DNA of 64,000 bases from Nitrosovibrio sp. Nv6. Its GTDB lineage: Bacteria; Pseudomonadota; Gammaproteobacteria; Burkholderiales; Nitrosomonadaceae. The notes under the pieces were generated by a model, which was given only the letters and a program-made list of their open reading frames with translations, was not told the DNA's origin and searched no databases. The DNA lies in the NCBI RefSeq assembly GCF_900110495.1, contig NZ_FODX01000001.1, positions 372,001 to 436,000 of the forward strand. The letters run 5' to 3'. Below are positions 30,535-52,077 of the stretch, piece by piece. The translations under genes were made by a program, and so were the position numbers. Numbering within the stretch: the first letter of the stretch is position 1; the number at the start of each line of letters is the position of its first letter.

Positions 30535-30536
30535 GC

Positions 30537-33797: not shown

Positions 33798-33803
33798 TGG
33801 ATG

Positions 33804-34241: not shown

Positions 34242-34277
34242 GATTCTTTCCTCTGAGTTTCGTTAGTAAAACCCAGC

Positions 34278-34661: not shown

Positions 34662-34686
34662 TTCAACTCTCCTTTTCTGTAGTCAT

Positions 34687-34711
34687 AAAAAAAGCCGCAT
34701 AACAGCGGCTT
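34687..34711 (-). terminator. Intrinsic terminator inside the late operon
   Basis: On the minus strand, a 7-bp stem AAGCCGC/GCGGCTT with a 6-nt loop is followed by a T-rich tail, between the 678-residue protein gene and the 127-residue gene. It lies on the coding strand, so it would cut the operon unless read through. Confidence 0.85.
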
Positions 34712-34730
34712 GTTTGCAAATCAATACTCT

Positions 34731-36767
34731 TTATGCCTGCTTCAATCCATCCATTGTTTCGGCCAGTACAACCCCCGTTACTTTCACATTGCCGGACAGC
34801 ACAACTTCCACGTTATCGGATTTGTAACCGCCCGGAAGCCGGAAAGCCCGGCTATTCTCAACCTGTTTGGTAAATTTCAGCACGCCATCGGCCCATAGCT
34901 GAAATTGCAGCGAGTCAATAGCGAGCGGCGGAATTGCTCGCATGTCGTCACCGCCGATCTCATACTCTCCCAGAACTGGATCAGCCAGTCCATCATTCAT
35001 TCCGCCTGAATCGACAAGTGCCTGATTAGCCGCGAGGGCCGCGGCATGGGAGGCTTGTGCCGAAGCTATCTCGGCTTCGGACATATCGAAATCAGCATCG
35101 ATCTTTGCCGCGCCATAGTTAACCGGCGGTGCCGTCACGAACTTCTTGCTCTTCCATTCGTAGGTGAGCTTGGTTCCCGCATTCCCTTCCCACTCGTATA
35201 TCTTCTTTTCCAGCGCTACGTAGAGCTTGCCGGTAGCCGGATCTGCCCACATGCAGGTAATGTTCTGGTTCACCTTGATAAAGGACGCGCTCTCGGCCTT
35301 GTCGATGACGAACATCAGTGAACTGCCCTCAACGGTATAGCCGCAGTAATAGCGGTTATCGGCAGAGGCTGCAATGAACGTGGCAGGGTTCAACTCTGCC
35401 CATTCCTTTTGCGTGAACAGGTCTTTCGTTACGATGTCGCTGCTAGCGCCAATGATTACCATGCCCTGTGGGGCGGGATAACCGACGCCGAACGCAAAAC
35501 TCGCCACGCCACGCTTTGACATGCAAGGCCACGCCACACCCAGCTTCTCCATACCCCCACCCATGGTTACCGGCTCAACGCCCGTTATGGTGAAGGGGTT
35601 GCCTTTCGTCATCCCGACCAGTGTCGTGCCGCTAAGGCCAATTGCTACGATTTCCTGGTCGTAGGTTTGCCGGTAAGAAGTTGGCCAGGCATAGGGCTTG
35701 AACGGTTCCGAGAACAATACTTCGTTGCCAATGAAACCAGCCGCAATTCCATTAGCCAAGATCTTAATGCCTTTCATGTCCGCGGGCGGCATATCCCAGG
35801 TGGCGGAAGGCAGCACTTCTCCAAGCGCAACCGCAGAGTCAGTCGCGGTATCGTCATAGCTGGAGGTCACCGCCGGGATGGTAACCACGTAGCGGTACTC
35901 GGTTCCGGATGGAGTGGTCAACGTGCGGTAAATCCGCTTGGTCATGCCAGTCGTGTTATGCGGCGCAACACGCTTCCATGTTCCGCCCCCGGAATAGATC
36001 TGTGTCGTTGCGAGCGATACAATGACTTTTTTTGTTGCTGAATCTACGTTCACCAAGGTGAATTGGCCGTTGAGATCATCCATTCCTGTAATTGAGGCGA
36101 ACGTGATCTTTTCCAAAGCTCGCAGACCAAACACCGTGTCAAGCGTGACTTCCACCTGTCCTGAAGCTGGTGTTTCCCTGACCGCGCCTGATACTGTTCC
36201 CGAATTCGGCGGCGCGGTATCCAGATTTGACAGCGCCCAGGTGTCATCCGTCTTTCCGGTAGTGACCTTCGAGGCAGGAGACGGCCTGGACTCCTCCCCC
36301 CATTGCGTGACGAAGGTATAAACATAAGCGCGAGTGGCGGATGGTCCGGTTCCGCCAGACGATGCAACTACAGGCCGGGCAACGGGTGGAGTAACGCCCA
36401 GAACATAACAACCCGAAGGATAGGGCCCGGCGCCCGCAGTCGCGAGATCAAAATCCGATGTACGCGGCTCCCCATCACCTGTGTAATAGAAGCGCCGCAA
36501 TGTATTGCCAGCGACAGGGGATTGTGCCACATCCACATCCACGTCCCATGTCAGCCACTTTTCGTTGCCGTCCTTCTCCAGGCGAAACATTGATCGGATG
36601 TCACTATCTATAACCGGGGAGAAGACCGCCCTCGGCCCGTTTCTCGGGCGTAAATCGCCGGAAGTAAGATTGCAATTGGTCGCAACCTGAGCCTGATTGG
36701 AGCTTAGCAGCTGCTTTGCCAGTCTTGGCACAAGGCCGGAAAACCCGGCAATTCTAAAAGCATTCAC
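34731..36767 (-). CDS. Large phage structural protein, probable tail/connector component
   Basis: This is a 678-residue protein. It starts IAGFSGLVPRLAKQLLSSNQA, has fibronectin-like segments (SATRAYVYTFVTQWGEESRPS, split by Pro-rich loops) and propeller-like repeats with short beta strands in the middle (LSGTTLVGMTKGNPFTITG, GIKILANGIAAGFIGNEVLF). The N-terminal block is recurrent in podovirus genomes, usually labelled only as phage protein. I infer a tail-tube or stopper-type role from size and position. The C-terminal 150 residues are Ala-rich and then beta. Confidence 0.7.
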   Translation of the reverse strand: MNAFRIAGFSGLVPRLAKQLLSSNQAQVATNCNLTSGDLRPRNGPRAVFSPVIDSDIRSMFRLEKDGNEKWLTWDVDVDVAQSPVAGNTLRRFYYTGDGEPRTSDFDLATAGAGPYPSGCYVLGVTPPVARPVVASSGGTGPSATRAYVYTFVTQWGEESRPSPASKVTTGKTDDTWALSNLDTAPPNSGTVSGAVRETPASGQVEVTLDTVFGLRALEKITFASITGMDDLNGQFTLVNVDSATKKVIVSLATTQIYSGGGTWKRVAPHNTTGMTKRIYRTLTTPSGTEYRYVVTIPAVTSSYDDTATDSAVALGEVLPSATWDMPPADMKGIKILANGIAAGFIGNEVLFSEPFKPYAWPTSYRQTYDQEIVAIGLSGTTLVGMTKGNPFTITGVEPVTMGGGMEKLGVAWPCMSKRGVASFAFGVGYPAPQGMVIIGASSDIVTKDLFTQKEWAELNPATFIAASADNRYYCGYTVEGSSLMFVIDKAESASFIKVNQNITCMWADPATGKLYVALEKKIYEWEGNAGTKLTYEWKSKKFVTAPPVNYGAAKIDADFDMSEAEIASAQASHAAALAANQALVDSGGMNDGLADPVLGEYEIGGDDMRAIPPLAIDSLQFQLWADGVLKFTKQVENSRAFRLPGGYKSDNVEVVLSGNVKVTGVVLAETMDGLKQA

Positions 36768-36779
36768 TCTGGCAAAACC

Positions 36780-37319
36780 TCAGTCTTGGGATTGTGTGGT
36801 ACGTGACAGGCCCAGCTTCTTCCCCTCGCAAATGGCGCGCTCCTCTGCCCTTCTCTTTACCAGCCCTGGCAATACTTTTCTGCCCGGACCGTACTTGAAC
36901 GCTTCTATGCGCGCGCACGCTTCAGCATATTTTTTGGAATTAATCAAATCGATCAGGTTGGGCGGTTTCCCCGGCTGGGCCTTCCGGCAAAATGTCGGGA
37001 CACCCACGTTATAAGCCAGTCTCACAAATGCCTCGTATTCATGCTGATACAATGGCACGGTCACGCAGCGTTTCACCCCAGCCGCATAGATTCCCTCCAC
37101 CTCGTCAAGCAGCCGCACCAGTGAGCGTTCCGGGGTGGTCTTGTCCCCCATCCTGACCCCGCCTGTCGTGCCGAATCCGATAGTCGGCACGTCGCCGGGG
37201 ACAGGGATATAGGCTTCATCCTTGTAGCCTTCATGCACGGCAAGCCCGACAAGGGTTGAAGCCGCCAGTACCAGTACAGCCACTGCGGAGCGGACTTGCG
37301 TCGGGGATGATTTGATCAT
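36780..37319 (-). CDS. Phage endolysin, GH24 lysozyme with SAR-type anchor
   Basis: This is a 179-residue muramidase. A weakly hydrophobic Ala/Gly/Val-rich N-terminal helix (about 9-29) without a clear cleavage site suggests a signal-arrest-release anchor. The catalytic region HEGYKDEAYIPVPGDVPTIG gives Glu30 and Thr46 of the lysozyme triad with Asp43 as the likely third residue, then FGTTGG and, later, EAFVRLAYNVG and ALK-type C-terminal helices (LPGLVKRRAEERAICEGK). It would hydrolyse peptidoglycan on release. It follows a lipoprotein and two small membrane proteins that complete a lysis cassette. Confidence 0.88.
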   Translation of the reverse strand: MIKSSPTQVRSAVAVLVLAASTLVGLAVHEGYKDEAYIPVPGDVPTIGFGTTGGVRMGDKTTPERSLVRLLDEVEGIYAAGVKRCVTVPLYQHEYEAFVRLAYNVGVPTFCRKAQPGKPPNLIDLINSKKYAEACARIEAFKYGPGRKVLPGLVKRRAEERAICEGKKLGLSRTTQSQD

Positions 37320-37371
37320 TTCTCGATTCCTTCAGATTTTTCATCGCACTCCTGCGAATTTTTCCTCAATG

Positions 37372-37632
37372 TCATTTGGCGTTTTCCTCAATGCAGTCAA
37401 GCTTCGCCTTTATTGTCTCTTTCAAATTCCCCGCATCCAGATTTGCGCAGGACGATATTCTGGTTGTTGGTGTGGGCAATGGCTTCGGTTTCAGCTTGGA
37501 CGCTTCTGCCCCACTTTCGGGCGGCTCCGAGTCCACAACGGGCGCAGCTTCGTCGGTTGCCCCATCCTGGGTGGGCGAAGGTGCAAGCATTGTGCATGAC
37601 GCAAGAAACAGCGCTCCCACCAGATATCTCAT
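37372..37632 (-). CDS. Small lipoprotein, o-spanin-like
   Basis: This is an 86-residue lipoprotein: signal peptide MRYLVGALFLASC with the lipobox Cys at residue 13, then a Pro-, Glu- and Ser-rich stretch and a short C-terminal helix (LKETIKAKLDCIEEN). The ATG overlaps the stop of the upstream membrane coiled-coil gene by 4 nt (ATGA), the arrangement of Rz/Rz1-type outer-membrane spanin partners. It lies beside the lysozyme. A second spanin-like pair occurs at 50100-50929. Confidence 0.65.
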   Translation of the reverse strand: MRYLVGALFLASCTMLAPSPTQDGATDEAAPVVDSEPPESGAEASKLKPKPLPTPTTRISSCANLDAGNLKETIKAKLDCIEENAK

Positions 37633-37928
37633 CGCTTCCTCCCGTGTGCCCACTGATCAATAATCCGGTCGAGTTTCTCATTGAATTCCCGCATTGTTTC
37701 CCGCTGCTCGCCTCTTGCGGATTTAAGCTCTTCGCTCAGACGCTCATTGGTTCTTTCCTGGTACAGCTCGCCCCGTTTAAGGCTGGCGATGTCGTTCTGC
37801 ACATCGCTGTAAGTGGCTACGCCGGATGCGAGAAGACCGGCTACGGCAATAATTCCGCTAAAGGATAATGTGTAGGTGGATGGTCCACGCCGCCGGTCTT
37901 TCTTTTGATCGCTATCATCGTCCGTCAT
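37629..37928 (-). CDS. Membrane protein with coiled coil, i-spanin or holin-accessory like
   Basis: This is a 99-residue protein: a charged N-terminus (DDDSDQKKDRRR), one membrane helix (LSFSGIIAVAGLLASGVATY) and a strongly charged C-terminal coiled coil (ELYQERTNERLSEELKSARG). The topology suits an inner-membrane spanin subunit. The ATG at 37928 is 2 nt beyond the stop of the preceding small gene; a longer frame to 37997 would overlap that gene. Lysis function is inferred from neighbours. Confidence 0.62.
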   Translation of the reverse strand: MTDDDSDQKKDRRRGPSTYTLSFSGIIAVAGLLASGVATYSDVQNDIASLKRGELYQERTNERLSEELKSARGEQRETMREFNEKLDRIIDQWAHGRKR

Positions 37929-37930
37929 GG

Positions 37931-38110
37931 TCACACGAGAATCCACAGAAATACGACCGCAAGCACGACAGCGCCTAGTAATATCGCCGCCGTCCATTTC
38001 GACGCCTTCAGCTTATCGAGCAACCTATCAGCGCCTGAATCAGCTACTTCATGTCGTCTTTCCATCTCTTCCTTGAGGTCTCTAATACGCTTGCGCTGGA
38101 ACATGGTCAT
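37931..38110 (-). CDS. Very small membrane protein (59 aa), holin candidate
   Basis: This is a short gene of 59 codons plus stop, easily missed. It starts MTMFQRKRIRDLKEEMERRH, a basic amphipathic helix, and ends with one membrane segment (AAILLGAVVLAVVFLWILV). Its stop is 2 nt before the next start. Single-helix C-tail topology and position just before the spanin-like pair and lysozyme suggest a pinholin or other lysis-timing protein, but no family motif proves it. Confidence 0.6.
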   Translation of the reverse strand: MTMFQRKRIRDLKEEMERRHEVADSGADRLLDKLKASKWTAAILLGAVVLAVVFLWILV

Positions 38111-38230
38111 GCTTAATTCTCCGAAAAAATAACGTTTTAAGTAGGATAGGGTGGAGGAAACGGACCCATCATTTGGTTATCGCCGCATCTCGCCAATTGC
38201 AATTAGCCGATATCTGGTTGGGAACATAAT

Positions 38231-38252
38231 AAAAAACGCGGTAAAGCCGCGT
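38231..38252 (-). terminator. Intrinsic terminator inside the late operon
   Basis: On the minus strand, a 6-bp stem ACGCGG/CCGCGT with a 5-nt loop runs directly into a T tract, 45 bp after the stop of the gene at 38299. It separates tail genes from the lysis cassette. Confidence 0.85.
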
Positions 38253-38298
38253 CTTAGCTGGGATACCTGATAAATTACATAAAGTATTCATCCCGGAT

Positions 38299-38895
38299 TT
38301 ACCATTGGATCGCATCCAGCTGCTGCTGAGCTGGGGTATTGCCGAGGGCGGCAATCTCATCGCACAGTTTCTGCCGCTTGCCCGTGAGCTGCCCATGCAT
38401 TGGTGCAAACAGAGCGGCATTAGCGATAATTCTGTCAACCAGCTCAGCCTTGCTCATGCCGCGTTCTGCGGCTGCACCATCAATCCATGGGGTATGGGCA
38501 TTCGAATCCTGTAGCCAGGCACGGGCTTCCGTTTCCTGTTTCGGCCAGCTGTTGATCTCGTCCTCGGGGTAGCCTGCCGTCATGGCCTTCACCGCGGCCC
38601 GATAGGAAGCATTGATGCGCGCTATCGCGGCTGCTTTCATCTGCCCGGCTGCTGATTGGCCGACTGGGATAGGGGCAATCGCCTGCGGCTCGGCGGCAGT
38701 CCACAGGTGTATGAATTCCTGAAAATCCGCTATGCTATCCAGTACAGTGTTCGCCGCTTCGTCATACTCGATGTGCCCGCTGACGCCATTCCATTGGACA
38801 GCGCGGATGCCTGCAGGCAGCGCCGACAGGTCAACCGGCCTGAATATTCCACCAACGCCGACAACGCCATCGTCTCTGATAATCGTTACTCGCAT
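38299..38895 (-). CDS. Phage tail-associated protein, tail-fibre-assembly/DUF4376-like
   Basis: This is a 198-residue protein. The N-terminus looks like the small beta domain of phage proteins that starts MRVTIIRDDGVVGVGGIF, and the C-terminal half is helical with AAAIARINASYRAAV and MSKAELVDRIIANAALF, resembling the DUF4376 region of tail-fibre assembly proteins. It overlaps the upstream gene by 10 nt. A chaperone role for the preceding tail protein is inferred. Confidence 0.65.
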   Translation of the reverse strand: MRVTIIRDDGVVGVGGIFRPVDLSALPAGIRAVQWNGVSGHIEYDEAANTVLDSIADFQEFIHLWTAAEPQAIAPIPVGQSAAGQMKAAAIARINASYRAAVKAMTAGYPEDEINSWPKQETEARAWLQDSNAHTPWIDGAAAERGMSKAELVDRIIANAALFAPMHGQLTGKRQKLCDEIAALGNTPAQQQLDAIQW

Positions 38896-39215
38896 GCCCG
38901 ATTCCCCCGTTGCAGCAGCGTCCGTTGCGCAGCGACGATCAGCGCTTGTTGCGTCTGCGCTCCCTGCTTCACCATCTCATTGCGGAACGACTCGGTAGCT
39001 GCAGCACCTTTGCGCGACTCATTGGCGGTGTTGATCATGAGGGTTGGCATCCAGGCGATGGCGCAGCCCCAGGTGCCGGTTTCTTGGCCGGTATTGGAGT
39101 CAACGCCATGGACCTGCACGTACCACGGACACCGGTAAAGCGCGGGTTGTCCCTCCTCCACCTTGAGCTCTTCGCATTTTGCGCCAAGCGGACATTCTGC
39201 TATGCGTGTTTTCAT
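38886..39215 (-). CDS. Small phage protein with cysteine cluster
   Basis: This is a 109-residue protein. The first half has four spaced cysteines (ECPLGAKCEE, YRCPWYVQVHG, WGCAIAWMP) that could bind a metal, and the second half is a helix (ALIVAAQRTLLQRG). Similar short proteins accompany tail genes in other podoviruses but carry no named function. The start overlaps the tail-collar gene stop by 1 nt. Confidence 0.62.
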   Translation of the reverse strand: MKTRIAECPLGAKCEELKVEEGQPALYRCPWYVQVHGVDSNTGQETGTWGCAIAWMPTLMINTANESRKGAAATESFRNEMVKQGAQTQQALIVAAQRTLLQRGNRACE

Positions 39216-40123
39216 CAGTCTTTGCTCGCTATAATCATGTCTATGTACTGCACCGCCAGGTTAATAGGAGTGCCGGTGAACATATGATTGTGCGCGGCAC
39301 CACCGCCCTGATATTCCGTGGCTGCCAAGGCCGTGGCATTATTTCCATCTAAATTAGTGTAATCTGGTCGTGGAGGCGTACCCGGTGTCCCATTCCCGAT
39401 ATAAATTTGATGGTTGTGCGACGGCAATTGTGCGGTCGTTAGCGTCGTCGCACTGTTCGATCCCGTAACAGCTTGCGATGCAAACGCGGTCGTAAATGCG
39501 ACCGAGCCACCGGAACCTCCGCCCGCGCCCCCCACAACCCGAATCGCCTTGTTGTTATGGTTGGTTACCTGAGTCCAGCCAACCGGCGCGGCAGCCTGAA
39601 AAAATGACATGACCGTACCCGGCGGAATGAGAGCTGCAATTGCAGCGGGAATGCCCAGCGTTGCTCGCGCTGCCGCTGCATCCGCATCGTCCAGCAATGT
39701 TCGGCTAAACGAACTCAGATCCGATAGCGCCGCTGCGCCTGCACCGGTGAAATACGGCAACTTATCGGCGGATGGCGAGAGCCTGCCCAGCGCCATGAGG
39801 TTCGCATTCGAAAGCGACTCCTGCAAGGCAACACTGGTCACGCCGGCTACGAAATGATCTCCAGCCGCCCAGGTGCGCGGTGTTGTCCCGTCCAGTCCGC
39901 GTCCCCCTGCTGCAATGGTGAGACTATCGGCGCTGCGCGCCTCGACCTTTACAATTTCACGGTTACCGGAAGCATCCTTGAAGATTCCGTAGAAATAATC
40001 GCCGGCGCCAAGCACCGGGAAGAGAATTCCTTTCCCGGCTTCAACCGTGAAGCTCAATCCGCTTGTCCCGCTTGGGGCGGAACTGACGATGGCTTTGCCG
40101 AAATTGGAGAACTTGAGTCCCAT
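39215..40123 (-). CDS. Phage tail fibre/collar-type protein
   Basis: This is a 302-residue protein. The N-terminal half (VEAGKGILFPVLGAGDYFYG) resembles virion-attachment domains. After a helical linker (LLDDADAAAARATLGIP, a common tail-fibre motif) comes a collar domain of the microcystin-dependent-protein type: PPGTVMSFFQAAAPVGWTQV, LPSHNHQ and AAHNHMF with a final NLAVQYIDMIIASKD. The paired His motifs can bind metal. It is probably the host-binding fibre tip. Confidence 0.8.
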   Translation of the reverse strand: MGLKFSNFGKAIVSSAPSGTSGLSFTVEAGKGILFPVLGAGDYFYGIFKDASGNREIVKVEARSADSLTIAAGGRGLDGTTPRTWAAGDHFVAGVTSVALQESLSNANLMALGRLSPSADKLPYFTGAGAAALSDLSSFSRTLLDDADAAAARATLGIPAAIAALIPPGTVMSFFQAAAPVGWTQVTNHNNKAIRVVGGAGGGSGGSVAFTTAFASQAVTGSNSATTLTTAQLPSHNHQIYIGNGTPGTPPRPDYTNLDGNNATALAATEYQGGGAAHNHMFTGTPINLAVQYIDMIIASKD

Positions 40124-40137
40124 GTTTTACCTCTTGC

Positions 40138-40761
40138 CTATCTTCGGCTCATGATGGATGTTCTTAATGGTGCTCTGGTGTGGCTTCTCGCCGCCCGCAA
40201 ACCCGCGGCCGCTGTTTTGATCGAGAACTGCTGCTGGTGATAGGCCGCAAGCTGCGCACTGGTGTAAGGCTTTTTAGGTGACAGCATCAGCCGCGCCAGG
40301 GCGCCGTGAACGATCGCCTCGCGGTATTCGTTGAACAATGCCTCATCTATACCGATGCTGGCAGGCGACGGTTTCAGCGCCACCGTCATGATTAATATTG
40401 CAGCAGCGCCGGGTCGCGGTACCAGTGTGATGGATGCTGCGTCATCCACAATATATTGCGGGGCGCTAATCCAGTCGCGCCGGTTTTGGGCGGAGACGCC
40501 GATCCCACCCATATATGGCGCTATTTCTTCGCCATCCAGTGCCGCAAAAGTGACCGCATGCACGACCGTTCCCTCTGGCGGCGCAAAGGCGTATCCGGCG
40601 ATACCAGCCACAACCGGAACGTCGGGGTGCGCGACCCGCCACGCCAGTGACTGTTCACAAAATGCGATTGCAGATTGGCGCAGCGCGCTATCGGCAGCGC
40701 TGAACGTGCAACCAGGCAAGTCGGGTATAACCAAATCATAGAAATCGCTCCAGATCGTCAT
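40138..40761 (-). CDS. Phage head-tail adaptor-like protein
   Basis: This is a 207-residue protein. It begins WSDFYDLVIPDLPGCTFSA and carries ALRQSAIAFCEQSLAWRV, EALFNEYREAIVHGALARL and a basic C-terminal tail, a layout shared with small adaptor/connector proteins lying after capsid genes in podoviruses. It overlaps the upstream adaptor gene by 4 nt. Function is inferred from position and size. Confidence 0.65.
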   Translation of the reverse strand: MTIWSDFYDLVIPDLPGCTFSAADSALRQSAIAFCEQSLAWRVAHPDVPVVAGIAGYAFAPPEGTVVHAVTFAALDGEEIAPYMGGIGVSAQNRRDWISAPQYIVDDAASITLVPRPGAAAILIMTVALKPSPASIGIDEALFNEYREAIVHGALARLMLSPKKPYTSAQLAAYHQQQFSIKTAAAGLRAARSHTRAPLRTSIMSRR

Positions 40762-41090
40762 GGTTGCGCCTCCGAGCTGAACAATTGCATGAATGCTGCC
40801 GCGCGTCCGGAATTGACATGCTCATCATCGGTCATTTCGGCTCTGGCCGTGACGTAATCCGCAACGGTCTGCACATGACAGGCGGGTAGCGGGAAAGTAT
40901 CGGCGAGTAACTTTTCCCCATTCGGCATACTGCCAAACTGCCCGATAAACAAATCAGGGCGATGCTTGAGAAGGCGCAATACTCCCTGGTTGGCAAACGA
41001 CAGCAACATTTCGTTGGAATACCGCGCCTCGTCTTCATCGTTAAGCGGAATGCGCGCCAGATCGATGATCGACTGATAAGTGAAAGGCAT
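40758..41090 (-). CDS. Phage adaptor protein (DUF6682-like)
   Basis: This is a 110-residue protein: TYQSIIDLARIPLNDEDEAR, then RYSNEMLLSFANQGVLRLL and HRPDLFIG. This pattern is that of phage adaptor proteins located beside connector genes. Its ATG overlaps the upstream stop by one base (TAATG) and its stop overlaps the next gene by 4 nt, so the three genes are translated as a unit. Confidence 0.7.
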   Translation of the reverse strand: MPFTYQSIIDLARIPLNDEDEARYSNEMLLSFANQGVLRLLKHRPDLFIGQFGSMPNGEKLLADTFPLPACHVQTVADYVTARAEMTDDEHVNSGRAAAFMQLFSSEAQP

Positions 41091-41476
41091 TAGTCGGCCA
41101 TCTCGTGTCTGGAAAACAGGTCGATCACTTTGTGCCGCAATGTTTCTTCGTTCTGGCGCTTGTCCAGCCGTTCGTTATAGTGACGCTCGGCATACTTGAC
41201 CAACGTATCTTTGTCCATTGCATGGAAGTCGATTACCGGCAAAGGTTCTTCAGCCGGCTTTTCTGCTTCTGCCAGACCGATGGGTTCAGCATTAAGGGGT
41301 TCCTCGCCCTTCCCCTCCTGCCACTCCTGTCCGCTTATCCAGGTATCGGAATAGACCAGCAGCCGTTCAGCGACTTCGGCACTGACGTTTCGTACCTGCC
41401 CAGGCTCCCAGCGGAGTCCTATGCCGTTTATGCTGTCAGTCTTGATACCGGCGGCAACGTATTTAACTTGTGGCAT
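41090..41476 (-). CDS. Phage protein of unknown function near capsid
   Basis: This is a 128-residue acidic protein with a small beta N-terminal domain (MPQVKYVAAGIKTDSINGIG, WEPGQVRNVSAEVAERLL) and a helical C-terminus (TLVKYAERHYNERLDKRQNE). It may be a head-completion protein. The ATG at 41476 lies 6 nt after a GGGA site that sits immediately behind the T tract of the 41487-41516 terminator, so terminator and ribosome site overlap in a way that could couple the two. Confidence 0.6.
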   Translation of the reverse strand: MPQVKYVAAGIKTDSINGIGLRWEPGQVRNVSAEVAERLLVYSDTWISGQEWQEGKGEEPLNAEPIGLAEAEKPAEEPLPVIDFHAMDKDTLVKYAERHYNERLDKRQNEETLRHKVIDLFSRHEMAD

Positions 41477-41486
41477 ATCAAATCCC

Positions 41487-41516
41487 AAAAAAAAGGGCGA
41501 CTCCGGAGAATCGCCC
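41487..41516 (-). terminator. Strong intrinsic terminator inside the late operon
   Basis: On the minus strand, GGGCGATTCTCCGGAGTCGCCC forms a hairpin with an outer 6-bp stem and inner CTCCGGAG pairing, followed by eight T. It comes 20 bp after the decoration-protein gene and separates highly expressed capsid genes from adaptor and tail genes. Confidence 0.9.
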
Positions 41517-41536
41517 AGTGGTCTCTTGCTTACTCC

Positions 41537-41977
41537 TTATTTGACGCCTGTTGCTTCCCCAGTAACGATGGCGGTGATCTTGCCAGTGGCAAATACTGTG
41601 GCCGCTACGGTTACCGTCAGATCCACATACACATCTTTCTCGAACTTGATGGGATCGAATCGGTAATCGTTGAGCCCGGCGACGGATAGATGGGTGACAG
41701 GAGCCGAAAAATAATCGTCATCCCCAGCCGGACCGTCCTCCGGATTGACTGGCGTGTAACCGATCTTGACGGCAAAGGACGTCCCACCGGTATCCAGGTC
41801 TGCGTTGTGAACCCGAAGACCCGTAACAGTCATACCTGCTGGTATTCTGACAGGGCGATAAACGCTTGCCAGGGCGCCGGAAGACGGCATCACCGTTCCG
41901 TAAACCATGGCGGCATTGCCATAGCCGCCCATCGGCATGGCTTTGCTATTCAAATCTGCTGCGTTAAAAGTAGCCAT
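41537..41977 (-). CDS. Putative capsid decoration protein
   Basis: This is a 146-residue beta-rich protein beginning MATFNAADLNSKAMPMGGYG. It directly follows the major capsid gene and precedes a strong terminator, the usual place of head-decoration or cement proteins. The second half has AATVFATGKITAIVTGEATG-type strands. No catalytic motif is seen; the role is inferred from position. Confidence 0.65.
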   Translation of the reverse strand: MATFNAADLNSKAMPMGGYGNAAMVYGTVMPSSGALASVYRPVRIPAGMTVTGLRVHNADLDTGGTSFAVKIGYTPVNPEDGPAGDDDYFSAPVTHLSVAGLNDYRFDPIKFEKDVYVDLTVTVAATVFATGKITAIVTGEATGVK

Positions 41978-42051
41978 TGATAAACTCCCTAAAGATTAAC
42001 GGACTGAAGCGGGACTCGAAAGCCCCGCTCTGCTGGATTGATTAAAGCGGA

Positions 42052-43323
42052 TTAAAGTGGTACGGCCGAATCCACCGCGATAACACCAAAGTCCGTAGGC
42101 ACCTTGGAGCCGGTTCCGTCATCGATCGAGAAACGGGTTTTCGCCTTGCCGCAAACCTTTTCACCCATCACTTCCAGGTTGCTCTCGAAGTTGTACCAAT
42201 GTTCCTTCCAGCCGAACTGCATGCCGCTGACATTGGTTTTGCCATAGGCTACGCCCAGAGCCTGCGCGCCAAGCAAAAGGCCGCGCTCCACGGCATAACC
42301 GGCAGTCAAAGCCGAATTCACGGCTTGATCTGTCTCGGCCGCGGTTGCGGCATTCGCTGCGGTAACAATCTTCGTGCTTTCGCTGGGCGTGAATCGAATG
42401 GCCCGCTCGTTCTTGATCACCAGAATGCCGTTCCACATTCCGACCTCACCGGCAAACAGCGGGTGACGGCTATCGAAATACGCTGCGCGATTGATCGCAT
42501 TCTGTTGGAATGCGCGGAGCGAACCCTCCGTCAACAGTATTGAATACTGATTGGGAGTTGCGAGGAACACCCACATCTTCGATGTCTGTGCCGCCCTGTC
42601 TCCCGCAAGCTTCACGGATTGCAGGGGCTGATCCATATCGTCCAGCCTCTTGCGCAGGAGATCCAGGTGCGACAGACGCAGGGCGTCTGTGGAGACAATG
42701 GACCCCAGCTGCTGGCCTCCGGGCGTAAGACTTGCACCATTCACCACAAAATGGCGGTTATAGGTCGGCGCCTTGACCGGATTGACCATGATCGAAGCGA
42801 AGCTCGAAGCAGCCTGCGTTGGTATCGTCCAGTCCGATCCCATCTGGGAGCCCCGCGCACCGGCAAGGTGTACCAGCGTTTCCTGCGCATCCAGGCGAGG
42901 AAAATAGCCCGACAATTGCGCCAGTGCGATTTCCCGCAATTGATGCTTGGTGCGCTGCTGAGACATGCTTCCACCCGCGTCAATGACCTTGCTGGATAGA
43001 TCGATCTTGATTTCCATCGAAGAAAACGAGAGAGCGCTGCCACGGCCTTCACGGTTTACGTCACCCATCAGCGGTTCGCCACCGACAGTATCGACCAGGT
43101 CGAGCGACACAACATCGCCGGCGCTCTTCATCAGGTTGTCGATGCGGACGACGGGCATGCCGGGATTTGTCTGCCCTGCCATTTTCTGCATCGCGGCGGA
43201 AGGTTCAACCGGTCCGACAAGACTGTCGATGGCAGTTGATCCTTTGAGCGTATTGGCAAAGAGCGCTGCGCTATAATGCTTGACGGCCAGTGAACTGCCG
43301 GTTGCTACATTTGTTTCAGCCAT
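42052..43323 (-). CDS. Major capsid protein, N4-gp56 family
   Basis: This is a 423-residue capsid protein. It starts AETNVATGSSLAVKHYSAAL and has GDVVSLDLVDTVGGEPLMGD, SSKVIDAGGSMSQQRT and GWKEHWYNFESNLEVMGEKV, all typical of the N4 gp56 (DUF4043) capsid family rather than HK97-type proteins of lambdoid phages. It lies 11 nt downstream of the scaffold-like gene. It would form the icosahedral shell. Confidence 0.87.
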   Translation of the reverse strand: MAETNVATGSSLAVKHYSAALFANTLKGSTAIDSLVGPVEPSAAMQKMAGQTNPGMPVVRIDNLMKSAGDVVSLDLVDTVGGEPLMGDVNREGRGSALSFSSMEIKIDLSSKVIDAGGSMSQQRTKHQLREIALAQLSGYFPRLDAQETLVHLAGARGSQMGSDWTIPTQAASSFASIMVNPVKAPTYNRHFVVNGASLTPGGQQLGSIVSTDALRLSHLDLLRKRLDDMDQPLQSVKLAGDRAAQTSKMWVFLATPNQYSILLTEGSLRAFQQNAINRAAYFDSRHPLFAGEVGMWNGILVIKNERAIRFTPSESTKIVTAANAATAAETDQAVNSALTAGYAVERGLLLGAQALGVAYGKTNVSGMQFGWKEHWYNFESNLEVMGEKVCGKAKTRFSIDDGTGSKVPTDFGVIAVDSAVPL

Positions 43324-43334: not shown

Positions 43335-44297
43335 TTAATCAAGTTCGGCTCTCAAGGCTGCCGCCTGGTGCGTGGGCATCTTCATCAACTTCTGAGCCAG
43401 TTCAAAGGGGCTCAAGTTCTCAAGTTGCTCACGTTCAGAGGCTGGGTTTGCTCCACCTTGAATATCCGATAGGGTTACGGGCTTCCTCACCGGGGCAGTC
43501 TCGAGCTTAGCTTTCGCATCGGCTTTTATCTTTTCCGGATCGGTGGTTTTTTTTGGAGTAGAGGCTTCCGGCATAATCGCCCTGACGCGGCGGACAACTT
43601 CTTCAAACCTGTCCGGATAAGGCTTTCCAGACCATTTAGTACTGGTTCTCAGAATCTCGTCCTGCTTCAGTGCTTCATCCCAGGCTTCCGGGTCGTTGCT
43701 TTCCCACTGCACCAGATCGGGGTTATTGTCTTTCGCCTCGGCAATTTGCTCGGCAACGCTCAGCTGACCCGCGCGATCTGATTCCTCCTTTTCGCGTTTC
43801 AGTTCCTGCAGCGTTTGTTCCAGCTTCTCGCCCTGCTTCCGGCTTCCCTCAAGAACGGCACTGATTACCTGATGAAGATCAGGCATATCTTCCTTCAGAA
43901 CCTCCAGGTGTGCTTTGATAGCATCGTCGGCCACGGTAATATCCGCGCCCTTCGCATCCTCCTTCTGTTTCAGAAGTTCTTCGAGTTTGCTGTGCGCGGA
44001 CTGTAGTTGCTCGCGCAGCGCCGAGTTCTCCACCCGCAGTTCCTTGTGTTTCTTGTAGGGAATAGTCCCCTTGCCGCTCTTGTTCAGAACGACCGGCTCA
44101 TCTTCTCCCGCCCCGCTACTCGCTTCACTGAGCGCGCTGTCTTCCACTTCTTGTCCGGGTTCTTCATGAGCCCCTTGCTCCGGTGCTTCCCGTGTGCCTA
44201 GAATTTCAGCAAGCTTGCCCGGATCGCTTTCCAGTATCTCGATTTGTTCTGGTGTAAGATTTGCAATTTGTTCATCCGTAAGCTGATCTACTTCCAT
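43335..44297 (-). CDS. Capsid scaffolding-like protein
   Basis: This is a 320-residue, highly acidic and helical protein with long coiled-coil stretches (NSALREQLQSAHSKLEELLK, EQTLQELKREKEESDRAG) and a short C-terminal helix (ELAQKLMKMPTHQAAAL). Size, charge and the place just before the capsid gene suit an internal scaffold. The start is uncertain: ATG at 44297 (GGAG 9 nt upstream) is used; ATG at 44306 and GTG at 44312 are also in frame. Confidence 0.78.
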   Translation of the reverse strand: MEVDQLTDEQIANLTPEQIEILESDPGKLAEILGTREAPEQGAHEEPGQEVEDSALSEASSGAGEDEPVVLNKSGKGTIPYKKHKELRVENSALREQLQSAHSKLEELLKQKEDAKGADITVADDAIKAHLEVLKEDMPDLHQVISAVLEGSRKQGEKLEQTLQELKREKEESDRAGQLSVAEQIAEAKDNNPDLVQWESNDPEAWDEALKQDEILRTSTKWSGKPYPDRFEEVVRRVRAIMPEASTPKKTTDPEKIKADAKAKLETAPVRKPVTLSDIQGGANPASEREQLENLSPFELAQKLMKMPTHQAAALRAELD

Positions 44298-44394
44298 TGC
44301 CTTCATCTCCACTTCTTAACGCAGTGAGCGCGCCGCTTTCGCGGGTTAATGAAAACTGCGGTATCGCCGTTAGCGCGTGTTACATGAAATCATT

Positions 44395-46495: not shown

Positions 46496-48265
46496 CTAAT
46501 CCGACTCCCCTCCGCCGCCCAGCTTACGCAACTGCTCCGCCAGCTCATGCCGGTTCGGCACGTCGGATAATTCCAGCATGGCTGGATATAGAACTGCCTG
46601 ATAAGCCGGCGGCGCCGCCTGTACGATCTGCGTGAACGCATGCAACTGCTGTGCCCGGAAGCTGGGTGTGGCAGGAATGTCCTCCAGCACAACCTTGACC
46701 TGCGCGGTTGCCAGGTCGTTCTCCACCGCCGGTCCGGCATCCGTCATTACGGAGCGGTTGAAGTACACGATCTTCTGCCCCGCGCCGTGCTTGACAGCCA
46801 CGGCTGTCGGCGTGCCCAGCATGTCTTGCTTGATTAATGCCAGAAGCTGCTGCCCGACCATTCGCCTCGCATAACGGAAATTATCGTTAGGCTCCGCCAG
46901 AACGGTAGAACCCTGCTCTACCAGGCTATTGATGGCTATGCCGCTGGTTGCCGTGGTATCGGCCCCGAGCATGGCCCTGTATATGCCGCCCACTTCTTCG
47001 ATTCTCCGCTTTCGCTCCTGCACCAACTGGAACACTTGCGCGGCGAGTTGATGCTCGCGCGTCACTTTGAATCCGCCGGCATTCCTGCGCTGGGCATTGA
47101 GGACAGTCATCGATCGAAGGCTGCTGATATTCTGCGCGACCTCCTGATACGAGTTTTGGCTAAGATCGAGCGCATCATTATCCACCTCGACTTTTACCGA
47201 GTTCAGGACTTCGTACAACAGAATATCCAGGTCGATAATCTGATCCTGGGGTCCCCTCATGTCGCGAACCAATCCATAAGGCGCTCTACTCCGGTCCTTG
47301 CGAAAACACCAGAATGGAACATAAGGAAAATCCGCGTGCGGCAGCGGACTTGGCACATCCATCAATTTATGCGGGCCCAGCCAGATCGAAACGCGCATTC
47401 GCGTGAGCAGCGATTTCTGCACCTGCACGAGCCCTTGCGCTACCGCCGCCTGATGGTATGGATTGTCCTCGCGGTATTCGATCGCTTTGCCATTCGGCAG
47501 CTCCAGCACATACCCACCCTCGAGATGCCGATACCATAATTCCGACAGCCGGACCATGCCCGAATTCCGGTTCAAATAATCCTCGTGGCTGCGGCCCCAC
47601 GCCTGCTCAATTTCGTAGGCTCTGGCCATGCCGGTGTCGGTCCCATCGTATACGTCCAGATTGCTCCATCCTGACCAGCTGTTCTGGATGAGCTCGGCCT
47701 TATCCGGCAACATAAGCGACGCCTGTACGCGATCCACCCACTTATCGCGCCTCAGATAGCGCGCATCCGACAAATCCGGCTCTCTTGCTGTCCAGTCCCA
47801 GAAAATCTCGTTACGGTGTACTTGTCGCACGCGATACGGATATTTCAGCGTATCGAATTCGCGCGAGACCTCAACCCATCCAATGCCCGCGCGGATCATG
47901 CTGGAGTAGGCATCCGACATCGCCCGATCCGCCCTGGATTCGGTCTCGGCCTCTTTAATGCGGGCCGACAGGCCCTCGGCTATCTCGGCCTGGCTTTCGT
48001 CGTCCGAGGTAACTTTATAATCTGTTCGGGTGCGCGCCTCCAGCCCCAGCACAGCGTTGATCGTCGACTTGATCAGGTTCGATTCCTGCGGGGGAATACC
48101 CGCGTCCTTCAGCCGCTGGATTACCTCGGTGCTCGTCTGAGCGCCATCGTAGTAATCGCAATCGGTATCCGAATCAATGCGCCACTTGGGTTGATCGCGT
48201 ATATCGCGGCAGATTCTGTCGTAGGCTTCAACCGATATATCCGCGGTGATCGCGGCCCCGATCAT
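46496..48265 (-). CDS. Phage portal protein, P22-type
   Basis: This is a 589-residue portal. IKSTINAVLGLEARTRTDYK, SDDESQAEIAEGL, DAYSSMIRAGIGWVEVSREF and FPYVPFWCFRKDRSRAPYGL mark it as a P22-like portal, the dodecameric gate at one head vertex through which DNA is packaged and ejected. Its ATG overlaps the large terminase stop by 4 nt, the classic packaging order. The C-terminal region is helical (HAFTQIVQAAPPAYQAVLYP). Confidence 0.88.
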   Translation of the reverse strand: MIGAAITADISVEAYDRICRDIRDQPKWRIDSDTDCDYYDGAQTSTEVIQRLKDAGIPPQESNLIKSTINAVLGLEARTRTDYKVTSDDESQAEIAEGLSARIKEAETESRADRAMSDAYSSMIRAGIGWVEVSREFDTLKYPYRVRQVHRNEIFWDWTAREPDLSDARYLRRDKWVDRVQASLMLPDKAELIQNSWSGWSNLDVYDGTDTGMARAYEIEQAWGRSHEDYLNRNSGMVRLSELWYRHLEGGYVLELPNGKAIEYREDNPYHQAAVAQGLVQVQKSLLTRMRVSIWLGPHKLMDVPSPLPHADFPYVPFWCFRKDRSRAPYGLVRDMRGPQDQIIDLDILLYEVLNSVKVEVDNDALDLSQNSYQEVAQNISSLRSMTVLNAQRRNAGGFKVTREHQLAAQVFQLVQERKRRIEEVGGIYRAMLGADTTATSGIAINSLVEQGSTVLAEPNDNFRYARRMVGQQLLALIKQDMLGTPTAVAVKHGAGQKIVYFNRSVMTDAGPAVENDLATAQVKVVLEDIPATPSFRAQQLHAFTQIVQAAPPAYQAVLYPAMLELSDVPNRHELAEQLRKLGGGGESD

Positions 48266-49515
48266 GCCCGCCAGCCCTTTATACTGATACCGCGCGCACT
48301 GGCAGCCGGTTTGTCATCCTCCACAGACACAGCAAAATACCTGAAGGCATCCGCGGCGTGGCTGTGGTAATCGTGCAGTGGCCTGCCACTGAATTGCCTG
48401 GATTCAGGGTCAACATCGAATCGATAATGCCTCAGGCTCTGCAACCCCTCGGCACATTTCTGTTCATCGAAATAGCAGCGATTGAAGATCGTTCGCGCCG
48501 CATTGATTCCGTCAGCAATGGAAAGATTCGGCACGACCCTCACCTTCCGCCCGGCCGCGAGCATGATTTCTTCAACACTGCGGCCGGTTGCCAGCGTTTT
48601 CGCTTTTGCATCATGAGGTAACCAGTCTGTACCATATATGTATCCCTTGTTTTGGAGCACGGTGATGTAATGTTGGATGGGCATCTGGTTATTGCTGTAA
48701 TAATCGATCAATCTGAGTTCGTTTCCCACCGTTTGGGCAAACCATATGCTGGTGTTATCAGCCCAACCCAGATCAAAAAAGGTATGCACCTGCTTTGTCG
48801 CATCATATGGCGCACTTGCAATTCGCCCTTCTTCCTGGGCGAGCCTGAGTTCTTTGGCGTAGACCGCTCCATCCAGTGTTACCCTGCAGTTTCCTTCCCA
48901 GACGTTCTGATATGCATCCGGGTCACGGATTTTCAATTCATCCTTTTCCCGTTGCAACGTATAGGGAAACCACGGGTTGTCATTCCAGTTGATCTTTACC
49001 ACTACGGCGTCGGCCGGAGGGTTGACAACAAATCGCTGATGCGTCTCGTCGGTTTCCAGCTCGGGGTTGTAGGTAACCCATATTTCCGATCCCTCTTTTC
49101 GGATAGTCGGAACAAGCGTATCCCAACTGGATTTGCTCACAGTCTGGGCTTCTTCCACCCAGACCCGATCGACGCCTTCGAACGACTTGATCTTCGTAAC
49201 GTTATTGCGCAGCCCGGCAAATATGAATTCGGAGCCATTGGCTCCGCGGATCATGCTGCTCTGTACTTCATAAAAAGAGCTCAGACCGATCGCGTCGATC
49301 TGTGCCTGCAACAGGTGATGCACGGATTCAACGATAGAATTCTGAAACTCTCTCGCGCACAGGATGCGCAATGGCGTTGCAGCTGCCTGGATCAATAACG
49401 CCCTTGCCACACCCCAGGATTTTGCTCCCCCTCTCCCGCCGTACAAGACCTTGTATCGCGCGGGTTCGAACAGGAACCGGAGTTTCGCAGGAAATTCCGC
49501 CCTATGCGCAGCCAT
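48262..49515 (-). CDS. terL: Large terminase subunit (PBSX-like)
   Basis: This is a 417-residue packaging motor. The ATPase half has Walker A GGRGGAKS (26-33) and Walker B VWVEEAQ, plus YNPELETDETHQRF as coupling region. The nuclease half carries DLGWADNTSIWFAQ and, near the end, HDYHSHAADAFRYFA, the acidic and His residues of the RNase-H-like site. It cuts concatemeric DNA and pumps it into the head. It is followed by the portal with 4-nt overlap and preceded by the small subunit. Confidence 0.92.
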   Translation of the reverse strand: MAAHRAEFPAKLRFLFEPARYKVLYGGRGGAKSWGVARALLIQAAATPLRILCAREFQNSIVESVHHLLQAQIDAIGLSSFYEVQSSMIRGANGSEFIFAGLRNNVTKIKSFEGVDRVWVEEAQTVSKSSWDTLVPTIRKEGSEIWVTYNPELETDETHQRFVVNPPADAVVVKINWNDNPWFPYTLQREKDELKIRDPDAYQNVWEGNCRVTLDGAVYAKELRLAQEEGRIASAPYDATKQVHTFFDLGWADNTSIWFAQTVGNELRLIDYYSNNQMPIQHYITVLQNKGYIYGTDWLPHDAKAKTLATGRSVEEIMLAAGRKVRVVPNLSIADGINAARTIFNRCYFDEQKCAEGLQSLRHYRFDVDPESRQFSGRPLHDYHSHAADAFRYFAVSVEDDKPAASARGISIKGWRA

Positions 49516-49539
49516 GACGCTCCACCGAACTTACGAGAA

Positions 49540-50103
49540 TCATGACAGGCCCTCCCCCGCAATAGCCGCATCGACCGCATGGGCGGTGTCGGCTGAAGAG
49601 ACAAAAGTCACCTCGACACAGTGAACAACCGGCTTCCTGGTATCGACCGCTTCATGCGTGACGGGCAATTTATCTCCGTATTTTCGTGGAGCAAGCCTTG
49701 CCGCATACCATTTGCGCGCATCGATCCGCAATTGCGCGCGCGCAATAACCTCCCGATCGACCACTTGCCGCCCCTTCTCATCGATATAGGTATCTTTTGA
49801 TCCGTCGTCGGAAATTTCGATGATTTCTTCAGCATAAGCGTCAACGCAAAGCTCCTTGGCGCGCAGATACTGCCGCATGAGATCTTCATCACTCGTCAAC
49901 CAGTACCATAAAATCCTTTGGCTGATGCCGACCTCGACGCACATTGCCCGAGCCGATCTGCCGAGCGATATGCCGGCGAATATTGCGTCCAGCAATTCCG
50001 GCGTTTTAATCGTCGGAGCCCCTCTTCTCCTGCCTGATGATGCTGCGCCTTCCTGATTCTTCTCCGTTTTATTCGGGAGCACTTCAGGTTCAAATTCACT
50101 CAT
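49540..50103 (-). CDS. terS: Small terminase subunit
   Basis: This is a 187-residue DNA-recognition subunit. After a charged N-terminus comes a helix-turn-helix region (ELLDAIFAGISLGRSARAMC, VGISQRILWYWLTSDEDL) and a basic, Ala/Arg-rich middle (RAQLRIDARKWYAARLAPRK) with YGDK, a typical small-terminase feature. It chooses the packaging start and hands DNA to TerL. It overlaps the o-spanin gene by 4 nt and lies 24 nt before terL. Confidence 0.87.
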   Translation of the reverse strand: MSEFEPEVLPNKTEKNQEGAASSGRRRGAPTIKTPELLDAIFAGISLGRSARAMCVEVGISQRILWYWLTSDEDLMRQYLRAKELCVDAYAEEIIEISDDGSKDTYIDEKGRQVVDREVIARAQLRIDARKWYAARLAPRKYGDKLPVTHEAVDTRKPVVHCVEVTFVSSADTAHAVDAAIAGEGLS

Positions 50104-50423
50104 GATCCGGCTTTTTCAGTATCTATCGTGCTCCCTTTATGCAACCCCTTGTTGCATCCCTTTAATGCCGCACGCAGTTTGACCTCGCATGCCCATCGTT
50201 CCTCTATCTCGGCGCGCAGCGCCCTATTGATGGTCAAGGTATCGTCCTTTATTGATACGCGGTCTACCGCATAGGCGGACTTGCACTCGGGTGGAGTCTC
50301 CACCAGGCAAGGGACAGCAATTGTTTTTTCGATCACCTGCGTCTGAATCACCGGTTTGCCAGCACAACCTGTTAATAAAATTACAAATACCAAAACCAGA
50401 ACTGAGTTAATAAGGTACATCAT
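50100..50423 (-). CDS. Rz1-like o-spanin lipoprotein
   Basis: This is a 107-residue lipoprotein. The signal peptide MMYLINSVLVLVFVILLTGC gives a lipid-modified Cys20, followed by short Pro-containing segments (ETPPECKSAYA) and a helix with two Cys (WACEVKLRAALKGC). It would bridge from the outer membrane to the preceding i-spanin to fuse the envelopes at lysis. A TTG-started extension to 50531 is less likely than the ATG at 50423. The gene is unusual in lying at the very head of the late operon, before the terminase. Confidence 0.7.
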   Translation of the reverse strand: MMYLINSVLVLVFVILLTGCAGKPVIQTQVIEKTIAVPCLVETPPECKSAYAVDRVSIKDDTLTINRALRAEIEERWACEVKLRAALKGCNKGLHKGSTIDTEKAGS

Positions 50424-50542
50424 GGGTTTATTGAGTAACAAGCTGAAATGAATAAGTAAAGATAATTCGATTGGGTCAATCAAGATGCGGGATGGTGCGC
50501 TGTTATTCCTGTCGAGCAGGAGCAAATACAACGTGATGGAAT

Positions 50543-50929
50543 TTACTCATTGTGATCCCGGCTTTTTACATATTCGATCTGCTCCCGATCTATCACCTCA
50601 CATTGATGCGCAGCCGCTACTGGCGGAAGAGCGCGCATTTTCTTTGCACGCTTTGTGTGCTTTGCTGCAACTGCTGTCGCACTCCGCATTGCCATTGCAG
50701 CATTTTTTTCCCTCCTGGCCGAGGTTGACGTCAGCGCATCCATTGCCTTGCGCACGGACTGAATATCTACCGCGCACTTGTCGTTTGCCGCCGACAGCAC
50801 TGCATTACTGGAATTCAACCGCTCGATCTCCGCTGCTGACCGCCAGTCACTAACGGCGAAGCCGCCACTGAAGGCAAGAGCAGCAAGAATGGCAATTATT
50901 GCCGCTGTAATCGCTGGGCTGCTGAACAT
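50543..50929 (-). CDS. Rz-like i-spanin
   Basis: This is a 128-residue inner-membrane protein: N-terminal signal-anchor (ITAAIIAILAALAFSGGFAV) and a periplasmic helical region (AAEIERLNSSNAVLSAANDK) with basic C-terminal parts. Topology and charge suit the inner-membrane spanin. The ATG has an AGGTG site and is the first gene behind the promoter and terminator array. Its likely partner is the lipoprotein 120 bp downstream. Confidence 0.7.
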   Translation of the reverse strand: MFSSPAITAAIIAILAALAFSGGFAVSDWRSAAEIERLNSSNAVLSAANDKCAVDIQSVRKAMDALTSTSARREKNAAMAMRSATAVAAKHTKRAKKMRALPPVAAAHQCEVIDREQIEYVKSRDHNE

Positions 50930-50965
50930 CCGGGTTCACCTGTAAAAAATCGCTGAGAGCGGGCA

Positions 50966-51095
50966 CAAAAAAACCCGCACGAGGCGGGTTTGGATAAAAA
51001 ACTGCAAAAACAGCGGGCAATAAAAAACCCGCCAGAAGCGGGTAAGAAAAAACCCGCGCGGGGCGGGTGGATGTAACCCGCTACAGCGGGGTTTT
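50966..51095 (-). terminator. Array of tandem intrinsic terminators in the late-operon leader
   Basis: Read on the minus strand from 51095 to 50966: CCCGC/GCGGG hairpin without T tract (51077-51090), CCCGC/GCGGG + T6 (51052-51068), ACCCGC/GCGGGT + T6 (51027-51043), and AAACCCGC/GCGGGTTT + T7 (50971-50991). Weaker CTG/CAG and CGCT/AGCG hairpins with T6 lie between and after them. The first hairpin has TTTT on its plus-strand side, so it may also stop opposing transcripts. The array lies between the promoter at 51138-51165 and the first late gene, so it should block that transcript by default. Confidence 0.85.
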
Positions 51096-51137
51096 AGTTT
51101 TTGTGTCCGTGCACGAAAATCCACAATATGGATGCGG

Positions 51138-51165
51138 ATTATACAGCGTTACCGGCTGTTGTCAA
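51138..51165 (-). promoter_or_regulatory. Consensus sigma-70 promoter of the phage late operon
   Basis: On the minus strand a perfect -35 hexamer TTGACA (51165-51160) and a perfect -10 hexamer TATAAT (51143-51138) are 16 nt apart, with TG directly before the -10. Transcription would start near 51131 and run into the terminator array and then the spanin gene. It is the best promoter in the window by eye. The stretch to the next gene at 51468 holds nothing else I can name. Confidence 0.85.
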
Positions 51166-52052: not shown

Positions 52053-52077
52053 ATGACACGATGAGGAGAGAGCGGCA

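Follow-up and report, generated by a model that had tools for sequence, protein, structure and literature searches.

A promoter leader in the genome of Nitrosovibrio sp. Nv6 very probably acts as a Q/AlpA-type antitermination checkpoint over the operon of structural and lysis genes in a domesticated Nitrosospira prophage. The leader lies in a 64 kb stretch of this genome (G000:C6:372001-436000), referred to here as the window, and the source genome (G000) is part of a set of 23 genomes from Nitrosospira-type ammonia oxidisers, whose records carry the names Nitrosospira and Nitrosovibrio. A lambda-Q-like checkpoint was the core of the original prediction, which had been made from the letters of the window. 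It is now supported by a co-conserved gene for an AlpA-like protein, by the profile and fold match of that protein, by phage homologs encoded upstream of similar leaders, and by a promoter spacing like that of the AlpA system.

A consensus promoter and tandem terminators precede the late genes

On the minus strand, TTGACA (51165-51160) and TATAAT (51143-51138) are separated by a 16-nt spacer. This promoter, whose perfect hexamers had been predicted to face the late genes, matches the sigma-70 consensus at 12/12 positions and is the only 12/12 promoter within 46000-56000. Judging from the position of the -10 hexamer, transcription would start at about 51131. The leader contains the following elements, the terminators coming from a hairpin/T-tract scan:

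51160..51165, minus strand: -35 hexamer TTGACA, the same in 21/21 readable leaders
51147..51152, minus strand: GTAACG spacer element, proposed binding element of the AlpA-like factor, identical in 19/21 leaders
51138..51143, minus strand: -10 hexamer TATAAT, found in 19/21 leaders, with TACAAT in the other two
51121..51131, minus strand: conserved element CCATATTGTGG, presumed initially transcribed region, recognised by leader conservation
51123..51128, minus strand: -10-like TATTGT, proposed sigma-dependent pause element, beginning 24 nt after the GTAACG start
51052..51068, minus strand: intrinsic terminator 1, followed by a T tract
51027..51043, minus strand: intrinsic terminator 2, followed by a T tract
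51011..51034 and 51016..51033, minus strand: weaker overlapping hairpin/T units
50971..50991, minus strand: intrinsic terminator 3, followed by a T tract

Three strong and additional weaker hairpin/T-tract units lie on the transcribed strand, as had been predicted, and the number of units exceeds chance expectation: the interval from the -10 hexamer to Rz holds three units where 0.19 are expected, a number that none of 100 dinucleotide shuffles reached. The leader is the single site in the window with three strong units in 150 nt on the same strand. Its RNA fold has a z-score of -5.6, with none of 200 shuffles being equally stable, and in the minimum-energy fold adjacent units pair with each other instead of forming separate hairpins alone. 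An inverted repeat at 51077-51090 was rejected as a terminator of the late transcript because its T tract lies on the plus strand. We also discarded the idea that the promoter belongs to an interrupted tRNA gene, as the single tRNA found by ARAGORN is far from the leader; an Rfam scan of the window at the gathering threshold returned a tRNA only, and the leader matched no Rfam family.

The promoter had been predicted to serve a phage late operon, and the genes downstream of it agree with this. The late cluster spans about 21 kb of the minus strand, from Rz at 50929 down to approximately 29758:

50543..50929, minus strand: Rz-like spanin, the first late gene (phrog_739)
50100..50531, minus strand: Rz1-like spanin lipoprotein (phrog_456, weak match, E 7e-4)
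49540..50103, minus strand: terminase small subunit (TerS), Sf6-like, by profile matches
48262..49515, minus strand: terminase large subunit (TerL), by PHROG match
46496..48265, minus strand: portal protein, by PHROG match
43335..44312, minus strand: conserved phage protein phrog_479 at the scaffold position, the scaffold role being a presumption
42052..43323, minus strand: major capsid protein, by profile matches
36780..37319, minus strand: endolysin, by PHROG match
29758..42051, minus strand: the remaining late cluster, with adaptor, tail fibre, internal virion, other structural and unknown-role genes, by profile matches

In PHROG searches, the 26 listed cluster genes of the window gave no match to an integrase, replication or repressor family. 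A gene between the portal and the scaffold-position gene (44449-45417, minus strand) is present in 3 of the 23 main loci, although the genes on either side of it occur in nearly all. A gene divergent from the late promoter, at 51438-52052 (plus strand), encodes a protein with an apparent signal peptide and no known family. Its dN/dS is 0.43-0.61 in five of seven close genome pairs, and a link to particle or surface biology is possible. Next to it, at 52078-52488 (plus strand), a Bor-like lipoprotein gene (PF06291) adjoins the domesticated prophage; Bor of lambda is a phage-borne serum-resistance lipoprotein.

The promoter block and the terminators are conserved across the genus

Leaders were readable in 21 of the 23 genomes, the contigs of the other two (G014 and G016) starting 1299 and 790 nt before TerL. 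Conservation is confined to roughly -36 to +30, and below this block the sequence turns over and the terminators remain. Across the 21 leaders, the information content per column is 2.00 bits in the -35 hexamer, 1.62 on the GTAACG side of the spacer, 1.92 in the -10 hexamer and 1.77 from +1 to +11, with 0.39 bits upstream and 0.40 bits beyond +31. Two patterns derived from the block each have one match per genome, at the leader, in 21/23 and 20/23 genomes; the reversed patterns, used as a control, gave 1 and 0 matches. One leader locus (L043, in G010) carries about 1.7 kb of additional DNA between Rz and the following late genes, perhaps an insertion.

The -10-like hexamer reads TATNGT (TACAGT in G019), with T1, A2, G5 and T6 constant in all 21 leaders, and it agrees with TATAAT at 4/6 positions in 19 leaders and at 5/6 in two. 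In 21/21 leaders its start lies 24 nt from the start of the GTAACG element. For comparison, a -10-like hexamer stands at the exact offset in 6 of 458 other promoter-like sites, and within three bases of it in 41. The 11-nt element CCATATTGTGG was first considered as an operator palindrome, and this idea was set aside: its dyad is broken in G017, G011 and G007, and is retained in G022 despite changes in both arms. The -10-like reading of this region is preferred as it is the better fit to phage relatives, and the two readings are compatible.

Terminators are present in every readable leader, numbering two to seven depending on the species. In total, 69 were found where 2.6 are expected, against 17 on the opposite strand. 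Stems have altered on both arms between species (e.g., CCCG/CGGG versus CTCG/CGAG in G003). As these two-sided changes accompany terminators that persist, selection seems to keep the terminators as such rather than one sequence, judging from this comparison. This weakens the simple idea that the stacked units are duplicates of one terminator, a part of the original prediction that could not be established: the unit count varies between species and short sequence matches reveal similar units at other places in these genomes. Those other units would also suit a passive insulator or simple attenuator, in which leak suffices and no factor takes part. Such an arrangement, which we hold to be highly improbable, leaves unexplained the spacer and +1 to +11 elements at 1.6-1.8 bits, as well as the co-conserved AlpA-like gene described below.

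The late operon belongs to an old domesticated prophage

TerL was found in 23/23 genomes of the genus, with the best copies 77-100% identical; outside the genus, 1 of the 97 family genomes searched contains TerL, as a distant match only. Gene order and most cluster genes are kept in the main loci, with few genes variable; as the main loci of G009 and G016 end at contig ends shortly past TerL, the gene-order comparison rests on the others. The divergent neighbour at 51438-52052 adjoins the cluster in 20/23 genomes, the misses being two contig ends and G019. In seven close genome pairs, dN/dS is 0-0.19 where computable for TerL, TerS, portal, capsid and endolysin, 0.05-0.13 for the AlpA-like regulator, with Rz reaching 0.44. 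As the cluster occurs in all 23 genomes, mostly at one site, and is under purifying selection, it is on sequence grounds an old domesticated prophage with mainly vertical inheritance.

Comparisons with rpoB are consistent with this descent. The dS values of TerL, portal and capsid are mostly on the order of that of rpoB, and for nine genes the protein distances are correlated with those of rpoB (Mantel r 0.47-0.86, and 0.70 for the repressor described below). Built for 21 genomes, a tree of four structural genes has 12 of 18 splits in common with the rpoB tree, where shuffled labels give 0.2 (maximum 2), and there are two well-supported conflicts. In the dN/dS and tree analyses, the G005 tail gene (34731), which spans two frames, was entered as a 6-residue stub. 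In the pair G000-G021, dS is 0.10-0.13 for TerL, portal and capsid and 0.11-0.12 for flanking genes, well under the 0.31 of rpoB, and some regional exchange at the locus is therefore possible.

Second TerL copies in G021 (83%) and G020 (82%) lack this promoter and are part of more complete prophages that include early genes. The G011 copy (77%), the third one, lies 1957 nt from the contig start, which puts its leader beyond reach. The source genome has another TerL, 43% identical, at G000:C6:1084044-1085243 in a different phage element. Six IMG/VR loci that closely match the cluster (L157-L159, L161, L163 and L168) are listed as viral contigs of 20-26 kb, so the domesticated cluster, minus its distant regulator, probably passes for a virus in such catalogues.

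These catalogue entries, the fuller prophages of the family and a gene set that is plainly phage-derived (packaging, capsid, tail and lysis) would all be expected if the locus were an ordinary prophage, active or decaying, whose late promoter is merely lambda-like. We judge this to be very improbable. An undomesticated prophage does not account for the shared divergent neighbour, for the dS values and tree splits that follow rpoB, for the lack of integrase and replication PHROGs among the listed cluster genes, or for the distance to the regulator. Domestication is thus the preferred reading.

An orphan gene for an AlpA-like factor is co-conserved with the leader

The original prediction had proposed a genome search for an antiterminator gene that is co-conserved with the leader. 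PF06530 (Phage_antitermQ), the one Q family searched, was found in 0/23 genomes; AlpA, too, has been reported to have no sequence homology to Q. Candidates were sought among relatives of the cluster. Eight relatives were viewed upstream of TerL, and five of them reach far enough: the second copies in G021 and G020 and the viral contigs L164, L165 and L169. In the position of a Q gene, upstream of Rz, all five have an ORF of 165-224 aa that codes for an unnamed protein. Among 13 loci with this phage regulator, 12 have a hairpin/T unit at most 4.5 kb downstream of it, and in six a promoter matching at 9/12 positions or more lies no further than 250 nt ahead of such a unit.

A profile search identified an orphan homolog of the phage regulator in 22/23 genomes of the genus, the miss being an 80%-complete MAG, and the gene is intact in 22/22. 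The profile of a larger alignment matched 22 of the 120 genomes of the family, all of them from this genus, leaving 0/97 among the others. Where both lie on one contig (15/15 genomes), the orphan and the late promoter are on the same strand, with the orphan 49-133 kb further upstream. The source genome has a further copy of the AlpA-like gene at G000:C6:211849-212346, interrupted by two stops and apparently left over from another prophage.

Searched against the PDB, a profile of 30 sequences had Pseudomonas aeruginosa AlpA as its sole match below E 0.01 (E 9.7e-6), over the full length (profile 1-164 on chain 1-173). The AlphaFold2 model of the factor has a mean pLDDT of 82.8, its low-confidence stretch at 24-41 taking in the ring loop, and it has the N-terminal ring part and C-terminal HTH of the AlpA/Q fold. 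With this model, Foldseek returned AlpA as the only matches below E 0.001 (E 5.5e-4, identity about 20%). The top seven rows of a structural comparison (VIA) were AlpA with Z 15.1 (PDB 7xya) and 14.4, lambda Q with 9.7 and Q21 with 6.7, 6.0, 5.8 and 5.7, the next row having 5.2. Since helical proteins can score up to a Z of about 13 by chance, it is the AlpA rows that carry the weight, those of lambda Q and Q21 being weak when taken by themselves. By its profile match and predicted fold, the orphan is an AlpA/Q-type processive antiterminator.

Other database searches added little. Three regulator members returned nothing useful from Pfam and PHROGs, a weak Pfam match to a sperm protein being discarded as it fell below the cut-off of that family. 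Thirty members compared with NCBIfam gave stray single matches only, and one member had no match by tblastn against 50,697 phage records. Of the five AlpA residues that contact DNA in the published account (excerpted from PMC9371919), our reading of the profile alignment shows R128 kept within an REI motif and the other four different.

A repressor and operator-like repeats accompany the factor gene

The orphan is part of a small regulatory module. A Cro/CI-type repressor gene lies beside it on the other strand in 22/22 loci, and genes for a DUF1376 primosomal-like protein and a DUF6475 protein adjoin it in 17/22. The five genomes without the DUF1376 and DUF6475 genes (G004, G005, G006, G008 and G009), the named ones of which are N. 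multiformis, have kept both repressor and factor. Between the repressor and the operon, three ACAAG-N5-CTTG repeats occur with regular spacing in 22/22 loci, joined by a fourth, weaker match in three; they are operator-like in sequence, and the third overlaps a promoter. A pattern made of the third repeat and the -10 hexamer matches the module in 21/23 genomes, with an extra site about 2 kb away in three. A LexA-type site (CTG-N10-CAG) ahead of the module is absent in 21/22 loci, the exception being G019. As the repressor shows HTH domains alone in Pfam, self-cleavage like that of AlpR is not expected.

The leader geometry resembles known antitermination systems

The closest likeness is to AlpA at PalpB/tB of P. 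aeruginosa. In the excerpts available of the published descriptions, the AlpA element GGGACG of PalpB lies at -25 to -20, between the -35 and -10 hexamers (PMC7969949), and a required -10-like CACGAT lies at -1 to +5 (PMC9371919). Starts at -25 and -1 are 24 nt apart, as in the Nitrosospira leaders. The two systems further have in common a factor related by profile and fold, a leader with one or more intrinsic terminators and a repressor gene in the regulatory unit (PMC7969949, PMC9371919). The conserved promoter element, the -10-like sequence and a terminator ahead of the first gene, which characterise AlpA/Q systems, can all be read from the Nitrosospira sequence. Unlike AlpA, the Nitrosospira factor is unlinked from its presumed target, and its sole pattern match heads a whole phage structural operon, whereas the AlpA targets, as excerpted, are alpBCDE and the PA0807 operon. 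The leader also has two to seven terminators, and the repressor only HTH domains in Pfam.

Phage relatives offer similar arrangements. In the viral contigs L272-L275, GAACCG, GAAGCA, GTAACA and GTAACA stand 24 nt before TAGAGT, TATAGT, TAGTAT and TATATT, respectively. These promoters were picked by filters that include the expected geometry, so they illustrate rather than test it; 4 of 13 contigs are clear, L274 and L275 have the same regulator, and the row for L281 looks spurious. In the prophage copy L283, the distance is 24 nt counted from GGTACA and 23 nt from GTACA. Lambda Q at PR'/tR' and 21Q resemble the Nitrosospira system in the position of the gene upstream of the late promoter (as seen in the phage relatives), in cis logic and in predicted fold, and differ in the PF06530 family, the one Q family for which the Nitrosospira genomes were searched.

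The gene transfer agent of Caulobacter (CcGTA; GafYZ, ZBE, terGTA) is a third comparison, in which the factor genes are likewise located apart from the cluster. According to excerpts of its description, CcGTA also combines a domesticated phage cluster with an antiterminator whose binding site lies between the -10 and -35 hexamers; a terminator of tandem repeats and an upstream repressor, there RogA, are further common features (PMC11150451). The binding element is different, the terminator follows the first gene in CcGTA whereas it precedes the first gene in Nitrosospira, and particles and transfer are known for CcGTA where the Nitrosospira system is known from genes alone. The same excerpts report that removal of GafZ cut a gtaT promoter reporter about fourfold without added terGTA (PMC11150451). 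By this precedent, the AlpA-like protein might mainly activate initiation at the promoter, with the terminators limiting background. We consider this improbable: perfect hexamers should need no activation, and the nearest structural relatives of the factor are antiterminators.

Discussion

Our preferred reading remains that the leader is an antitermination checkpoint. From the sequence and by analogy with AlpA, Q and GafZ, we infer DNA binding, pausing and antitermination by the factor, and an order in which the repressor acts before the factor. In the off state, polymerase would initiate at the strong promoter, pause briefly at the -10-like element and stop by default in the tandem terminators. 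On relief of the repressor, the AlpA-like factor would be made from its small phage-derived module, headed by the Cro/CI-type repressor and located tens of kilobases upstream. The factor would bind GTAACG between the -35 and -10 hexamers and load onto the paused polymerase, which could then read through the array into the lysis, packaging, capsid and tail genes, leading to particles and lysis. The best reading, by analogy, is that repressor, AlpA-like antiterminator and late operon form one cascade split over two loci, similar to the antitermination control of CcGTA.

The cluster has several features expected of a gene transfer agent: phage-like structural genes, vertical inheritance and purifying selection, with two tree conflicts and one low-dS pair as exceptions. 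As to self-propagation, integration and replication PHROGs are missing among the 26 listed genes of the window's cluster, and the primosomal-like DUF1376 gene persists in the regulatory module of 17/22 genomes. We tentatively propose, as a reading that falls somewhat short of probable, that it is a genus-wide gene transfer agent of these betaproteobacterial ammonia oxidisers, spread over two vertically inherited loci and descended from a tailed phage whose packaging genes were P22/Sf6-like. A CI-type switch would control an AlpA-like antiterminator, which would act on the particle-operon leader as its only genomic target pattern, amounting to an independent evolution of the Caulobacter-type antitermination lock. 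Particles and gene transfer are suggested here by analogy, and the transfer of host DNA is the main uncertainty.

Instead of DNA transfer, the purpose of the particles might be killing or programmed lysis, with which antitermination is compatible too. AlpA drives a lysis programme in Pseudomonas (excerpt of PMC7969949), and here the spanins come first in an operon that includes the endolysin. We nevertheless see this purpose as rather unlikely, since the capsid, the portal and both terminase subunits, all held under purifying selection in the seven pairs, would be needless for lysis alone.

A part of this design is already known from each of AlpA (lysis genes), the Q proteins (phage late genes) and GafZ (the Caulobacter gene transfer agent, PMC11150451). 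New, as far as we have seen, are the pairing of an AlpA-type factor with a whole domesticated phage operon, the tens of kb that separate factor and target in all linked genomes examined, and, for ammonia oxidisers, a gene transfer agent candidate. Nitrifier proviruses have been catalogued in bulk (PMC11849493, in excerpt), and we found no description of a gene transfer agent or of this locus in Nitrosospira in the open-access literature.

These findings would extend AlpA-type antitermination from the lysis programme of Pseudomonas to an entire domesticated particle operon, and one factor with one target makes a directly testable pair. They also point to a candidate gene transfer agent in soil nitrifiers, a group of global importance. 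Stress-triggered prophage induction in N. multiformis 25196, attributed to Choi 2010 in the excerpts of PMC9502458 and PMC6728921, may have a possible physical explanation in this system. If antitermination does stand ahead of the particle operon both here and in Caulobacter, a strong promoter behind a lock would seem to be a favoured way of silencing lethal domesticated phage genes. These bacteria may thus hold a tame virus under tight control.
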